The position numbers and the translations under genes are program-made. Of a DNA stretch of 64,000 nucleotides, positions 24,580 to 30,012 are shown one piece after another. The notes under the pieces were generated by a model. That model saw nothing but the letters and a program-made list of their open reading frames with translations, had not been told where the DNA came from and did no database searches. The first letter of the stretch is position 1. Each line of letters starts with the position of its first letter. Origin of the DNA: Tepidibacillus decaturensis (GTDB taxonomy: Bacteria > Bacillota > Bacilli > Tepidibacillales > Tepidibacillaceae); contig NZ_LSKU01000001.1 of NCBI RefSeq assembly GCF_001561915.1, forward strand, positions 814,628-878,627. Direction: 5' to 3'.

Positions 24580-25155
24580 ATGAAAAAAACAGTTGAAAAA
24601 TCTAAACAAACTGTGTGGGTATTGACAATGTTAACCGTAATGGTGGTCCTATCTGCTTACTATTTAGTGACAGATCCAATTACTCCCACACAAATGGCAA
24701 CTACTAAAGAAATAACATCACCTGAGAAAACAACAATAGATGTAAATACAGAGGAGGTTAGTAAAGCTACAGATTTAACTGACGAAATCGGCTCAAATGA
24801 GAGTGATTACTTTGTTAGTTTAAAAATGGATCGTAATACGATGAGAACCAAACAATTAGATGATTATTACATGATGATGAAATCAGATTTATCTGAAGAA
24901 GCAATCGCCAATATTCAAGATAAAATCGATTACCTTCAATCGATCGAAGAGTCTGAGTTGGTATTGGAAAATCTAATCATTGCTGAAGGATATGATGATG
25001 CAGTTGTTTTAACAAAAGAAAATGGCGTTGATATCATGATACAGACCAATTCGATGAAAAAGGAAGACGCTGTAAAGATTATAAAGTTGGTTAGTGATCG
25101 ACTTAATATTCCAGCAGTGAACGTTCATATTAAGCCAGTCGCATTCAATAAATAG
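24580..25155 (+). CDS. spoIIIAH: stage III sporulation protein AH
   Basis: This is a protein of about 191 aa with an N-terminal membrane anchor (TVWVLTMLTVMVVLSAYYLV), a Thr/Glu-rich linker and a C-terminal EscJ-like domain. That domain should interlock with SpoIIQ from the forespore side. The ATG at 24580 is placed 6 nt after AGGAGGA; the ATG at 24574 abuts it. It is the last gene of the operon. Confidence 0.94.
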   Translation: MKKTVEKSKQTVWVLTMLTVMVVLSAYYLVTDPITPTQMATTKEITSPEKTTIDVNTEEVSKATDLTDEIGSNESDYFVSLKMDRNTMRTKQLDDYYMMMKSDLSEEAIANIQDKIDYLQSIEESELVLENLIIAEGYDDAVVLTKENGVDIMIQTNSMKKEDAVKIIKLVSDRLNIPAVNVHIKPVAFNK

Positions 25156-25196
25156 GAATAAATAATAAAAATATTCGTAAAATTTTTAAAAATACG

Positions 25197-25224
25197 CCCG
25201 GTCAGCAGGAGATCGGGTTTGTTT
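25197..25224 (+). terminator. weak terminator after spoIIIAH
   Basis: CCCGGTC pairs with GATCGGG (one G-U) around a 7-nt loop and is followed by TTTGTTT. Confidence 0.5.
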
Positions 25225-25262
25225 GTATAATAATCTAATGTAGAATAAAAACAACTAGTGGC

Positions 25263-25291
25263 TTACCACTGGAATAAACCTATGGTATAAT
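25263..25291 (+). promoter_or_regulatory. sigma-A promoter of accB-accC
   Basis: An extended -10, TGGTATAAT, ends at 25291, with TTACCA 17 bp upstream at 25263-25268. No clear FapR site was seen. Confidence 0.6.
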
Positions 25292-25326
25292 GTCGATTAT
25301 GATTAAAGGAAACGGAGGTTAACAAA

Positions 25327-25839
25327 ATGTTTAAAATTCATGAATTAAGAGAACTAATCAAACTGATTGATCAATCAAGTATCCAAGAATTTGAACTCGA
25401 GGTTGAAGGATCAAAATTGTCGATGAAAAAAAGAGGTGAGGAGCCGGTATTTATCACCGCACAACCACAAGTTCAGGCTCCAGTTGCTCTTCAACAACCT
25501 ACTCCGACACCACAAGTGGTAAAAGAAAAAGTAGAACCTGAAACGAAGGCGAATGCATCGGTAGTTGAAACTGTCCCAGCAAAAGTAGAGGATAAAAATC
25601 TTCATAAGATTAATTCGCCAATGGTGGGAACCTTTTATAAAGCACCTGCTCCAGATGCAGACCCATATGTAAAAGTTGGGGATAAAGTAAATGAAAAGAC
25701 CATTGTTTGTATTGTTGAAGCAATGAAATTAATGAATGAAATTGAAGCAGAAGTAAAAGGAGAGATTGTTGAGGTTCTTGTAGAGAATGGGCAATTGGTT
25801 GAGTATGGCCAACCATTGTTTTTAGTCAAGGTTGAGTAG
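25327..25839 (+). CDS. accB: acetyl-CoA carboxylase biotin carboxyl carrier protein
   Basis: BCCP carries the biotin that is carboxylated by AccC and passed to acetyl-CoA by AccAD, the first step of fatty acid synthesis. The C-terminal biotinyl domain contains EAMKLMNEI, with the biotinylated lysine at residue 134. A Pro/Val/Glu-rich flexible linker spans residues 40-90. The length is 170 aa, with a GGAGG ribosome binding site. accC follows 19 bp downstream. Confidence 0.96.
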
Positions 25840-25858
25840 AGGTGGGAAGGAGATTATC

Positions 25859-27205
25859 ATGTTTCATAAAGTATTGATCGCAAATCGTGGCGAAATTGCA
25901 GTAAGAATCATTAGAGCATGTCGTGAAATGGGTATTTTTACGGTAGCAGTTTATTCAGAAGCAGACCGTGATTCTTTACACGTAAAAATGGCCGATGAAG
26001 CCTATTGCATAGGGCCAACTGCTTCAAGGGATTCATATTTAAACTTCGCAAATATTATAAGCGTTGCTAAACTAACTGAGGCAGATGCAATCCATCCTGG
26101 GTATGGTTTTTTAGCCGAAAATGCCGATTTTGCTGAAGTATGCTCCTCTTTTCAAATTGAATTTATTGGACCAACACCTGATGCGATACAGAAGATGGGA
26201 GAAAAAGCTGTTGCAAAGGACACAATGAAAAAAGCAGGTGTACCTGTTGTACCAGGATCTGATGGTTTGATTGAGGATGTAGAAGAAGCCATTCAGTTAG
26301 CAAAGAAAATTGGTTATCCAGTGATTATCAAGGCGACAGCTGGTGGTGGCGGCAAAGGAATGAGGGTCGCCTATAATGATGAAGAATTGCGAAAATCCAT
26401 TCGTATGGCACAACAAGAAGCAAAATCAGCATTTGGTAATTCAGGGGTTTACCTTGAAAAATACTTAGAAGAACCTAGACATATAGAAATACAAATTATT
26501 GGAGACAAGTATGGAAATGTGGTACATTTAGGCGAAAGAGATTGCTCTATTCAAAGACGACACCAAAAATTGATAGAAGAAGCACCTTCACCTGCCTTAA
26601 CAAAAGAACTAAGGGAAAAAATGGGGGAAGCTGCTGTTCGTGCAGCAAAAGCAGTCAATTACCATGGAGCCGGTACCATTGAGTTTTTATTAGATAAAGA
26701 CCAATTTTATTTTATGGAGATGAATACAAGAATTCAGGTTGAACATCCTGTGACTGAACTTGTTACAGGAGTGGATCTGATAAAAGAACAAATTCGTGTA
26801 GCAGCAGGGGAGCCCTTATCGTTTAATCAAGAAGATATCCAATTTAATGGATGGGCGATAGAATGCAGAATCAATGCAGAAGATCCTTTTAAAAATTTCA
26901 TGCCATCGCCTGGGAAAATCGACTTTTATTTACCACCAGGAGGGCTTGGAGTCCGATTGGACAGTGCCGCTTATCCAGGTTATACAATATCTCCTTTTTA
27001 CGATTCTATGATTGCAAAATTGATCGTTTGGGGAAGAGATCGTGATGAGGCGATCTCAAGAATGAAGCGTGCTTTAGATGAATTTACAGTCGAAGGGGTT
27101 AAAACGACGATTCCTTTTCACTTAAAACTCTTAAATCATGAGTTATTTATAAAGGGTGATTTTGATACCAAATTTTTAGAAAAACACCCCATTCATAAAA
27201 CATAA
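25859..27205 (+). CDS. accC: acetyl-CoA carboxylase biotin carboxylase subunit
   Basis: This is an ATP-grasp enzyme that carboxylates the biotin on AccB with bicarbonate. The length is 448 aa. The N-terminal block is [20 protein letters not shown], the glycine-rich ATP loop is [13 protein letters not shown], and the catalytic region is [16 protein letters not shown]. The ATG at 25859 behind AAGGAG is the start; the upstream in-frame GTG at 25832 overlaps accB and is not conserved. Confidence 0.97.
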
Positions 27206-27212
27206 TGTAAAC

Positions 27213-27269
27213 TTGTCTTTTTTTACCTCCCATTGGTATAATAAACCCAAAGGACATTGGGAGGTAAAA
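27213..27269 (+). promoter_or_regulatory. yqhY promoter overlapping a hairpin that masks the yqhY ribosome binding site
   Basis: TTGTCT at 27213-27218 and an extended TGGTATAAT ending at 27242 form a promoter with an 18-bp spacer. A perfect 12-bp inverted repeat pairs 27221-27232 (TTTTACCTCCCA) with 27258-27269 (TGGGAGGTAAAA), which contains the GGAGGT of yqhY. The left arm lies inside the promoter spacer. It is therefore present only in readthrough transcripts from accBC and absent from transcripts made at the yqhY promoter. Confidence 0.6.
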
Positions 27270-27271
27270 TC

Positions 27272-27652
27272 ATGATGGAAAATGAGATCAAGGATTATGA
27301 AGTAACTGAAATCGGAACGATTCAGATCTCTCCGCAAGTTATTGAGGTCATTACCAAATTAAGTACGATTGAAGTAGAAGGTGTTGCAGGTTTAAGTGGT
27401 GGATTTACAGAAGGAATTGTAGAATTCTTGGGTCGTAATAAAAATACCACAAAAGGTATTAAAGTAGAAGTTGGGCAAAAAGAAACAGCTGTTGATGTCT
27501 CCGTGATTATAAAATACGGATATCCTATTCCTAAAGTGGCTGAGGAGATTCAGCAAAGTGTAAAAAATGCGATTGAGAGTATGACTGAATTAACCGTAGT
27601 TGAAGTGAATGTACATATTGATGCCATTCAAATTGAAGAAAAGGATGAATAA
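27272..27652 (+). CDS. yqhY: Asp23/Gls24 family protein YqhY
   Basis: This is a 126-aa Asp23/DUF322 protein (EIGTIQISPQVIEVITKLS, then VEVGQKETAVDVSVIIKYG). In B. subtilis the accBC-linked YqhY affects acetyl-CoA carboxylase activity and lipid homeostasis. The start is the ATG at 27272 behind GGGAGGT. amaP and a DUF2273 gene follow, completing the usual membrane-anchored Asp23 module. Confidence 0.9.
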   Translation: MMENEIKDYEVTEIGTIQISPQVIEVITKLSTIEVEGVAGLSGGFTEGIVEFLGRNKNTTKGIKVEVGQKETAVDVSVIIKYGYPIPKVAEEIQQSVKNAIESMTELTVVEVNVHIDAIQIEEKDE

Positions 27653-27711
27653 TGAATGGAATAGTCCCCCTGTGCACAAACAGGGGGGTTCATAGGTTGG
27701 GAGGACGTCAA

Positions 27712-28260
27712 ATGAAAAGTTTCGATCGTTTTTTCCTATTCCTTTACAGTATTACTTTCTTAATTGTATCGTTGGTTGCACTACTGGTAGGAGTGGGATT
27801 TCTACAATATAACTTGCTTATTGAACTTATTGAAAAGATCTATTTTGATTATCCACTTGTTTTATTAGGGATAAGCATAGTTACTTTGTTTTTTAGCATT
27901 TATTTCTTGGCTAGAAGTTTACAATCTAAAAAGGGAATCTCCACATTTCGTAAACGTTTAGAAATCGGAGAGGTTCAAATTTCAATGGAATCATTAGAAA
28001 CTCTTGTAACTAGAGTTTCTTCTAAAGTCAAAGGTGTAAGAGAATTAAAAGCAAGGGTAAAACCGGAAGAAAACGGGACGATTACGATTCTAGTGAAAGT
28101 ATTTGTTGATGGAGAAACGCCTATGCCTTTAATTACAGAAGAAATTCAACAACAGGTTAAAGAAAATATAGAACATATTTCTGGTATTACAGTTGGACAA
28201 GTGCATGTAATGATCTCCAATATTAGCCAAAATACTGTGAGAAAGCCTCGTGTAGAATAG
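27712..28260 (+). CDS. amaP: alkaline shock response membrane anchor protein AmaP
   Basis: This is a 182-aa protein with two N-terminal membrane helices (SITFLIVSLVALLVGVGFL and YPLVLLGISIVTLFFSIYF), followed by an Asp23-like cytoplasmic domain. AmaP anchors Asp23 proteins to the membrane. The start is the ATG at 27712 behind GGGAGG; the longer frame from 27652 lacks a site. A GC-rich hairpin (CCCCCTGT / ACAGGGGG, 27666-27687) lies in the gap from yqhY, possibly protecting the upstream mRNA. Confidence 0.85.
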   Translation: MKSFDRFFLFLYSITFLIVSLVALLVGVGFLQYNLLIELIEKIYFDYPLVLLGISIVTLFFSIYFLARSLQSKKGISTFRKRLEIGEVQISMESLETLVTRVSSKVKGVRELKARVKPEENGTITILVKVFVDGETPMPLITEEIQQQVKENIEHISGITVGQVHVMISNISQNTVRKPRVE

Positions 28261-28273
28261 GGGGGCTAATAGA

Positions 28274-28489
28274 GTGTTCTTAAAACTTTGGGAAGAGCAT
28301 CCAGGTACTATAGTTGGGCTGATTAGTGGTTTATTTGTTGGATTTATCTTTTTATTCGTTGGGTTTTGGAAAACAATTATTTTTCTAGGATTTGTTGGTA
28401 TGGGGTTGTACATCGGGAAAAAAATAGATGCTAGAGAAGACTTGCATGATGTCTTAGCGGAAATCCTTCCAGAAAAATTCTTAAAATAA
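28274..28489 (+). CDS. DUF2273 small membrane protein
   Basis: This is a 71-aa protein with two close membrane helices (GTIVGLISGLFVGFIFLFVG and TIIFLGFVGMGLYIG) and a short cytoplasmic tail (KKIDAREDLHDVLAEILP). DUF2273 genes regularly sit beside amaP and asp23-type genes. The GTG start at 28274 lies 8 nt after a G6 site. It is the last gene of the accB-to-DUF2273 group before a terminator. Confidence 0.85.
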   Translation: MFLKLWEEHPGTIVGLISGLFVGFIFLFVGFWKTIIFLGFVGMGLYIGKKIDAREDLHDVLAEILPEKFLK

Positions 28490-28532
28490 GATAGTCAACT
28501 AAGTAGAAACCTATCATTCTTTTACACGTATT

Positions 28533-28562
28533 AAGCCACCTAGTATGGTGGTTTTTCTTTTT
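28533..28562 (+). terminator. terminator before nusB
   Basis: AAGCCACC pairs with GGTGGTTT (one G-U) around a 6-nt loop, followed by TTTCTTTTTT. Confidence 0.75.
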
Positions 28563-28609
28563 TGGTATGATAAGATAAAAGAGGAAATTTTTAAGAAGGA
28601 GAAATGACT

Positions 28610-29044
28610 GTGAAACGTAGTGTCTTAAGAGAAAAAGTATTACAAATTTTATTTCAAATGGATCTAGCTGATATTGAAATAGAGAATGCCATAGATTCAG
28701 TAACAGAAGACGAAAATTTTAGCGAGGAAGATCTCTCATTTATCAAAAATCGAGTAAATGGATCGTATCATCATCTTAAGGAAATTGATGAGGAAATTAG
28801 TCAATTTTTAAAAGGATGGCAACTAGATCGACTTGCAAAGGTTGACAGAGCGATTTTAAGGATGTCAACATTTGAACTGATGAATATTGAAGATGTACCA
28901 GTTAAGGTAACCCTTAATGAAGCAGTAGAATTAGCTAAAAGATTTGGTTCAGATCAATCTCCAAAATTTATAAATGGTGTATTAGGTTCAATGGTTAAAG
29001 CCAACCCACAGTGGGATTCAAAGGGACAGACGGTTACAGAATAG
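28610..29044 (+). CDS. nusB: transcription antitermination factor NusB
   Basis: NusB binds boxA RNA with NusE (S10) and promotes rRNA antitermination. The length is 144 aa, with the family ends KRSVLREKVLQILFQMDL and EAVELAKRFGSDQSPKFINGVLGS. The GTG at 28610, 8 nt after AAGGAG, gives the canonical N-terminus; the ATG at 28604 sits too close to the site. It heads a run through folD, xseAB and ispA. Confidence 0.93.
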   Translation: MKRSVLREKVLQILFQMDLADIEIENAIDSVTEDENFSEEDLSFIKNRVNGSYHHLKEIDEEISQFLKGWQLDRLAKVDRAILRMSTFELMNIEDVPVKVTLNEAVELAKRFGSDQSPKFINGVLGSMVKANPQWDSKGQTVTE

Positions 29045-29052
29045 GAGTTAAA

Positions 29053-30012
29053 ATGAGGAAAAAAAGTTTTTTGGGAATAGATACCAGCAATTATATGACA
29101 TCAATCTGTTTTATTGATAAAAATAGGGAAGTACTCTATGAAGCAAAAAAGCTCCTTCAGGTTGGACATGGGAAAAGAGGACTTCAACAGTCGGAAGCCT
29201 TATTTCAACATGTCAGGAATTTACCTGAACTATTTAAAAATTGGTATGGAACAGAGGAGTTTGAACTAAGTGGAATTGCAGTTAGTCGTGCACCTAGGCC
29301 TGATAAAGATTCTTATATGCCCGTATTTTTAGCAGGGTTAAGTGTTGCTGAAAGTATGTCAGCAACGTTTCATGTTCCAATCTATTTTACAACGCATCAA
29401 GAAGGCCATATCGCTGCAGGGTTATATAGTGCAGAAAAACGACCAAAAAATAAGCATTTTCTTACAGTTCATTTATCTGGTGGAACAAGCGAGATTTTAT
29501 TTGTAGATCAGATGGATTCAGGTTTTCAAATCATAAAGCTTGGGGGAACCCTTGATCTTCATGCTGGTCAACTCATTGATCGTATTGGTGTGCTACTCGG
29601 ATTTTCATTTCCAGCTGGACGTTTTGTCGAGGAACTCGCCTTGTCAAGTCACACTGAGTTCAAAAGAATTCCTTCTTCAATCAAAGAGCTTTCTTTTCAT
29701 TTTTCAGGTGCAGAGAATGAAGCAATGAAAAGAATTAAGAATGGTGAGCCTAAAGAAGAAGTAGCTAGGGCAATAGAGCACAATATTGCAACAACGATAA
29801 GTAAGGTATTAAGAAAAGCTATTGAACAAGGCTATCCAAAAGAAATTTTAATTGTTGGTGGGGTTGCTCAAAACCAATATATTCGAGAATATTTAATCAA
29901 ACGTTTAGAACATAGAAGTGTTGGAGCAGCTCTGTTTTTTGCAAAAAAGGAATACTCTGGGGACAATGCTTTTGGAGTAGCAAACATCGGACTTAATCAA
30001 TGGAATGTTTAG
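29053..30012 (+). CDS. TsaD/Kae1-like (Gcp family) paralogue
   Basis: This is a 319-aa actin-fold protein of the TsaD/Kae1 family, first annotated as an O-sialoglycoprotein endopeptidase. The metal-binding HxxxH is in TTHQEGHIAAG. SGGTS replaces the usual SGGHT, and GGVAQNQYIRE and SGDNAFG match the C-terminal ligand region. TsaD itself makes t6A on tRNA with TsaB and TsaE, neither of which is nearby, and the sequence diverges from housekeeping TsaD. A paralogue of unknown function is therefore the better call. The ATG at 29053 follows AGGAG, 8 bp after nusB. Confidence 0.75.
   Translation: MRKKSFLGIDTSNYMTSICFIDKNREVLYEAKKLLQVGHGKRGLQQSEALFQHVRNLPELFKNWYGTEEFELSGIAVSRAPRPDKDSYMPVFLAGLSVAESMSATFHVPIYFTTHQEGHIAAGLYSAEKRPKNKHFLTVHLSGGTSEILFVDQMDSGFQIIKLGGTLDLHAGQLIDRIGVLLGFSFPAGRFVEELALSSHTEFKRIPSSIKELSFHFSGAENEAMKRIKNGEPKEEVARAIEHNIATTISKVLRKAIEQGYPKEILIVGGVAQNQYIREYLIKRLEHRSVGAALFFAKKEYSGDNAFGVANIGLNQWNV

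Follow-up and report, generated by a model that had tools for sequence, protein, structure and literature searches.

In Bacillus subtilis, accB, accC and yqhY are described as forming a tricistronic operon that is expressed constitutively and in which yqhY is the distal gene, and YqhY is presented as a protein that possibly regulates acetyl-CoA carboxylase, its loss selecting for carboxylase mutations (PMC5437119). The order accB-accC-yqhY and the Asp23-family product are shared by Tepidibacillus decaturensis, in which we analyzed 64,000 nucleotides of contig NZ_LSKU01000001.1 (the window, meaning this whole stretch). The locus raises the question of whether yqhY is translated there from the accBC read-through transcript or from a transcript of its own. 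An earlier note on this DNA had proposed the latter, with an inverted repeat hiding the yqhY ribosome binding site in read-through transcripts. The features that bear on the question, in window coordinates, are the following:

25263 to 25291, plus strand: promoter-like site upstream of accB, TTACCA-17-TATAAT with TG before the second hexamer (consensus match only)
25327 to 25839, plus strand: accB, biotin carboxyl carrier protein (NCBIfam TIGR00531, open reading frame)
25832 to 27205, plus strand: accC, biotin carboxylase (NCBIfam TIGR00514; open reading frame from TTG, with an ATG-started form from 25859)
27213 to 27218, plus strand: -35 element TTGTCT of the putative yqhY promoter (TTGT in the same place in 4/4 family genomes)
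27221 to 27232, plus strand: left hairpin arm TTTTACCTCCCA, anti-Shine-Dalgarno, in the spacer between -35 and -10 (repeat scan)
27234 to 27242, plus strand: extended -10 element, TGG TATAAT (TGnTATAAT in 4/4 family genomes)
27249, plus strand: putative transcription start, placed from the -10 element and uncertain by a few bases
27258 to 27269, plus strand: right hairpin arm TGGGAGGTAAAA, containing the Shine-Dalgarno GGAGG at 27260 to 27264 (repeat scan)
27272 to 27652, plus strand: yqhY, Asp23-family protein, with a second ATG at 27275 (Pfam PF03780, E 2.6e-33; open reading frame)
27712 to 28260, plus strand: amaP-like gene, start chosen (NCBIfam NF033218)

Promoter-like site and inverted repeat upstream of yqhY

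The accC stop codon (TAA, 27203-27205) lies just 5′ of a promoter-like site at 27213-27242, which consists of TTGTCT, an 18-nt spacer (27219-27236) and TATAAT with a TG extension. The left arm falls entirely within this spacer, between -35 and -10 as the earlier note had placed it, and the repeat scan recovers the perfect inverted repeat described there, the two arms being complementary over 12/12 bp and extendable to 15 nt at 93% complementarity. The right arm contains GGAGGT (27260-27265), the Shine-Dalgarno (SD) sequence of yqhY, and the yqhY ATG follows at 27272. The complete gene order is accB, accC, yqhY, the amaP-like gene, a DUF2273 gene and nusB, and the assignment of yqhY to the Asp23 family agrees both with its PF03780 domain and with the presence of accC upstream.

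Promoter-like matches are as common in this region as in shuffled sequence (21 in 6 kb, with 20.0 expected from shuffles), so the match upstream of yqhY proves little by itself; the support for this promoter comes from its conservation rather than from its consensus match. The site at 25263-25291 is presumed to be the source of the accBC read-through transcript. A plus-strand scan of the window, G003 and G001 (the latter two being relatives introduced below) lists no terminator-like site in forward orientation in the accC-yqhY interval. The hairpin itself was rejected as a transcription terminator, given its 19-nt loop and its absence from the same scan.

The pairing between spacer and SD is exceptional within the window. 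Among 41 SD-bearing genes, yqhY ranks first, with a duplex energy of -21.4 kcal/mol (the next gene reaches -13.5), and it also has the lowest predicted SD accessibility. When the spacer was shuffled, the observed duplex energy was matched in 0/1000 cases and the helix length in 6/1000. The 56-nt hairpin has a folding energy of -19.2 kcal/mol (z = -3.3; 2/200 shuffles as low); no notable structure is predicted for the short leader beginning at 27249 (z 0.7).

The amaP-like gene is presumably carried on the same transcripts as yqhY, and its SD is predicted to be poorly accessible too (0.067 unpaired). A GC-rich hairpin, CCCCCTGT-GCACAA-ACAGGGGGG, lies at 27666-27688 between the yqhY stop codon and amaP, and several other loci (e.g. 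L016, L017 and L028) have hairpins of a C run and a G run in a comparable position. The hairpin at 27666-27688 is possibly an attenuator, or a terminator with a weak T tract.

Conservation within the family and other yqhY loci

The family, and likewise the order, was sampled with five genomes, G000 to G004, of which G000 is that of the window. A yqhY ortholog follows accC in three of the others, G001 (L008), G002 (L007) and G003 (L004), at 56-68% protein identity. All three possess TTGT, a spacer of 17-18 nt, TGnTATAAT and a leader of 21-24 nt, and their spacers carry an arm containing CCTC or CTCCC. The combination of promoter and SD-complementary spacer arm is thus present in 4/4 yqhY-bearing family genomes, the window's included, an outcome in favour of the earlier note, which had named conservation of the repeat in relatives as a check. 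Identity at fourfold-degenerate sites of accC is 0.32-0.40 in all six pairs of these four genomes, which is near saturation, so that unselected sequence is nearly randomised among them. Shuffled spacers matched the observed duplex energy in 0/1000 cases for G002, 0/1000 for G001 and 5/1000 for G003; the G003 helix is weaker, and its length was matched by 57/1000 shuffles.

The fifth genome, G004, has no yqhY between accC and amaP (L076, 3430-3700) but keeps amaP, DUF2273 and nusB, and it appears to have lost yqhY. By eye, its accC-amaP region has neither a promoter of the yqhY type nor the hairpin.

Predicted access to the SD differs sharply between the two transcripts in each of the four genomes. 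In read-through transcripts with both arms, the earlier note had expected the SD to be masked, and its predicted unpaired probability is indeed 0.000 in G000, 0.016 in G002, 0.003 in G001 and 0.120 in G003. Transcripts from the yqhY promoter, expected to lack the left arm and leave the site freer, give 0.73, 0.77, 0.46 and 0.97 in the same order. In 4/4 genomes the left arm precedes the -10 element, so it is absent from every RNA that starts downstream of the -10, regardless of the exact position. Shuffled spacers gave occlusion as deep as observed in 0/300 (G000), 29/300 (G002), 10/300 (G001) and 25/300 (G003) cases; since other structures can also hide an SD, occlusion alone is a less specific measure than duplex strength.

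To place the family in context, 46 of 53 fetched yqhY loci were compared; one of the searches behind the 53 contributed loci for its best approximately 30 matches only. The loci set aside were two paralogs (L002 and L003), one incomplete locus (L048) and four distant clostridial loci (L050-L053); the 46 include L049 (Desulforadius), which we take to lie outside the Bacilli. A motif recognised accC upstream of yqhY in 36/46 loci, and TGnTATA occurs within 110 nt of the chosen yqhY start in 37/46, a distribution to be set against the tricistronic description of the B. subtilis operon (PMC5437119). The -35 is TTGTCA or TTGTAA in 23 of these 37. No TGnTATA promoter was called in the remaining nine, five of which (L028-L032) have accC gaps of 28-174 nt and presumably rely on accBC transcripts for yqhY expression.

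The masking arm has a much narrower distribution than the promoter. Pairing between spacer and SD reaches p <= 0.01 in only the four family genomes among the 46 loci. In the 33 promoter-bearing loci from outside the family, occlusion of the SD by upstream sequence does not differ from that in shuffles (mean fraction 0.486, KS p = 0.51), and 3/33 (L018, L019 and L041) have spacer-SD pairing at p < 0.05, with 1.65 expected. Folds of L018, L025, L027 and L041 contain no clean hairpin of the family type. The hairpin is therefore not required for yqhY in general. With the promoter found in 37/46 loci and no masking trend in the 33, the comparison suggests a widespread internal yqhY promoter to which the hairpin looks like a family-level addition.

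L019 (G005) deserves separate mention. About 60 nt upstream of its yqhY start at 1501, TCTTTTCAT just 5′ of the -10 element pairs with ATGAAAAGGA at the SD (p 0.034 for the spacer and 0.10 for the whole upstream region), and the predicted unpaired SD probability is 0.04 in the long transcript and 0.88 in the short one. This locus, from a single genome of its family, is a possible independent instance of the SD-masking layout. Two Paenibacillus loci, L044 and L047, have an inverted repeat upstream of yqhY (CTTAC..GTTA / TAAC..GTAAG, seen by eye), with one arm at the spacer and -10 and the other just past the presumed start, away from the SD. This repeat could serve as an operator or form a hairpin in read-through RNA.

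A pyrimidine-rich promoter spacer and a purine-rich SD may be complementary by chance, without any function, and the abundance of such arrangements must be weighed here. The pattern CCTCC-N(3-14)-TATAAT-N(8-38)-GGAGG has two matches in the window's own genome, yqhY and one other, a spoIIID-like gene, with none for the reversed control. Across the class, CCTCC-spacer, TATAAT and GGAGG occur together in 170/299 genomes compared with 109/299 for a CCACC control. Once the frequency of each 5-mer before TATAAT was corrected for, the excess was not significant in 61 of these genomes (63/1428 versus 32/1059, OR 1.48, p = 0.09), and such sites consequently do arise by chance. However, the yqhY pairing is longer than a 5-mer, ranks 1/41 in the window and is kept in 4/4 genomes despite near-saturated synonymous divergence, and the 33 other loci with the same promoter show no such trend. 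We consider coincidence unlikely for this site.

RNA pairing and DNA symmetry

An inverted repeat could equally act as DNA, as an operator at which a dimeric regulator binds half-sites flanking the -10 element and controls the yqhY promoter. The arms do lie on either side of the -10 and the start region, a position suited to a repressor, and the window dyad is perfect as DNA. This symmetry is not conserved in the relatives: the longest contiguous Watson-Crick pairing is 12 in the window and 6/6/6 in the relatives, while pairing that includes G-U stays at 14/14/11 in the relatives (12 in the window). The half-site sequence itself is altered in G003, and the right arm, being the SD, is conserved independently for its own reason. 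The contiguous Watson-Crick lengths (12/6/6/6) do not show the conserved symmetry that an operator dyad would have, and a DNA operator is improbable.

A comparison of nine pairs in the four sequences reveals how the pairing is retained. Three pairs are invariant, and four differ by a change in a single strand that creates or removes G-U. One has changed on both sides, being U-A in G003, G-U in another genome and A-U in the remaining two; the last pair is broken in G003. The compensatory change that the earlier note had anticipated in relatives is therefore found chiefly as G-U substitution, with one two-sided change. G001 and G002 lack the three outermost window pairs. The G003 arms pair with each other at -14.9 but poorly with the arms of the other three genomes (-6.7 to -10.4). 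With four sequences, the formal covariation statistics are weak: when the rows were shuffled, the observed percentage paired was reached in 26/500 cases and the covariation score in 122/500, and among permutations of the arms, own-arm pairing ranks only 4/24 by energy and 2/24 by length, a result carried by G003. Because G-U pairing survives where the Watson-Crick dyad shrinks, and because G003 pairs well only with its own arm, the comparison speaks for a hairpin in RNA rather than an operator in DNA.

An RNA hairpin at this position might instead act on the accBC mRNA, as a 3′-end stabiliser or processing site, with SD masking as a by-product. In the window, a strong hairpin does follow soon after the accC stop codon, within the 66-nt gap to the yqhY start, and it could block 3′ exonucleases. 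Against this, the accC-yqhY gap in G003 is 360 nt, yet hairpin and promoter still adjoin yqhY, so that some 300 nt separate the hairpin from the accC stop and it has stayed with yqhY rather than accC; moreover, by eye there is no hairpin in G004, where yqhY is absent. A role for accBC mRNA is thus very improbable.

Hairpins that mask an SD are often regulated switches, and the long-transcript hairpin might accordingly open in response to temperature or to a protein or small RNA. The predicted unpaired probability of the SD stays <= 0.0015 from 30 to 70 C, which disfavours an RNA thermometer, occlusion being predicted to hold up to 70 C. The loop differs among the family genomes, and Rfam covariance models run over 25000-29100 with E up to 1 gave no match at the hairpin, the sole match (25478-25603) falling below the gathering score. 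A switch of any of these kinds seems a very slim prospect.

A proposed insulator and its counterparts

The reading that the yqhY promoter contains a translational insulator, by which translation of yqhY would be shielded from accBC read-through and depend on the gene's own promoter, is the one best supported, and it is the mechanism that the earlier note had put forward; from sequence comparison and folding models, we give it a probability of about three in four. RNA polymerase arriving from accBC would transcribe both hairpin arms, and the nascent long RNA would fold into a hairpin of 11-14 bp that buries the yqhY SD. This long mRNA would yield AccB and AccC and little YqhY. Polymerase starting at the yqhY promoter would begin past the left arm and produce a leader of approximately 23 nt in which the SD is free. 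The yqhY promoter would then determine YqhY output, independently of accBC transcription. The two transcripts, the activity of the yqhY promoter and the block of initiation by the hairpin are all elements that we infer.

Translational coupling to accC could in principle undo the masking. It was disfavoured, since the accC-yqhY gaps in the four genomes are 66, 68, 106 and 360 nt, distances judged against the size of a ribosome footprint.

The purpose of the arrangement may be to keep a suspected acetyl-CoA carboxylase regulator independent of the mRNA level of the enzyme, with the link between YqhY and carboxylase control borrowed by analogy from B. subtilis (PMC5437119). The accessible part of the B. 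subtilis account describes the operon without mention of an internal promoter or a hairpin (PMC5437119). Genes of an operon are usually assumed to be co-expressed; here the distal gene is predicted to be co-transcribed but untranslated from that transcript. If this is true, the level of YqhY in these bacteria would be independent of accBC mRNA, which bears on the balance of the suspected regulator against its target, and a promoter with an anti-SD in its spacer would constitute a compact insulator part.

A precedent for this logic exists in phage T4, where the genes e, soc, 49 and I-TevI have their SD and/or start codon tied up in an RNA helix (PMC3014915, PMC2988022). For e and I-TevI, the available portions of these papers assign the sequestering to long early transcripts, while transcripts from the adjoining late promoters lack the 5′ part; the reported reduction for gene e is 100-fold (PMC3014915, PMC2988022). 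By analogy, the yqhY layout appears to share the logic of e and I-TevI: a long RNA initiated upstream hides the ribosome binding site, and a short RNA from a close promoter lacks the 5′ strand, here by prediction. The principal difference is the setting, as the T4 cases are phage genes in early/late switching under late promoters, whereas yqhY belongs to a chromosomal housekeeping operon with an ordinary extended -10 promoter. Unlike in e and I-TevI, as far as those papers describe them, the 5′ strand of the yqhY hairpin lies in the spacer between -35 and -10. The short RNAs of e and I-TevI are translated according to the papers, whereas for yqhY the corresponding difference in translation is predicted from sequence and folding.

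Among the matches listed in the open-licence literature, judged by titles and the beginnings of abstracts, no cellular operon with such a layout was recognised. PMC10601692 and PMC5094136, judged on passages of their text, are not precedents.

In a similar way, the transposase genes of IS10/Tn10 and IS50 are protected from external promoters by fold-back of the mRNA: read-through RNA pairs over the ribosome binding site, which stays unpaired in RNA started at the promoter of the element itself. That device shields a mobile element from accidental external transcription, whereas the transcript arriving at yqhY is that of a regular operon.

More generally, some bacteria may store an anti-SD in freely variable promoter spacers as a built-in insulator for an internal promoter, allowing a gene to sit in an operon and yet be translated solely from transcripts of its own promoter. 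In this generalization, which we regard as speculative and rather doubtful, the family would uncouple YqhY from accBC mRNA in this way, and spoIIID of these genomes may be served by a comparable arrangement. The spoIIID layout is only a lead, since the promoter region of that gene is conserved anyway. At G000:C1:2508543-2508591 (minus strand; L078/L111), upstream of what we take to be a spoIIID-like gene with a presumably sigma-E-like promoter, the promoter spacer contains CCTCCTC, complementary to the SD GGGGAGG. In folds inspected by eye (L112-L115), this pairing is broken in G002 and present in 4/5 family genomes, namely G000, G001, G003 (with a bulge) and G004.
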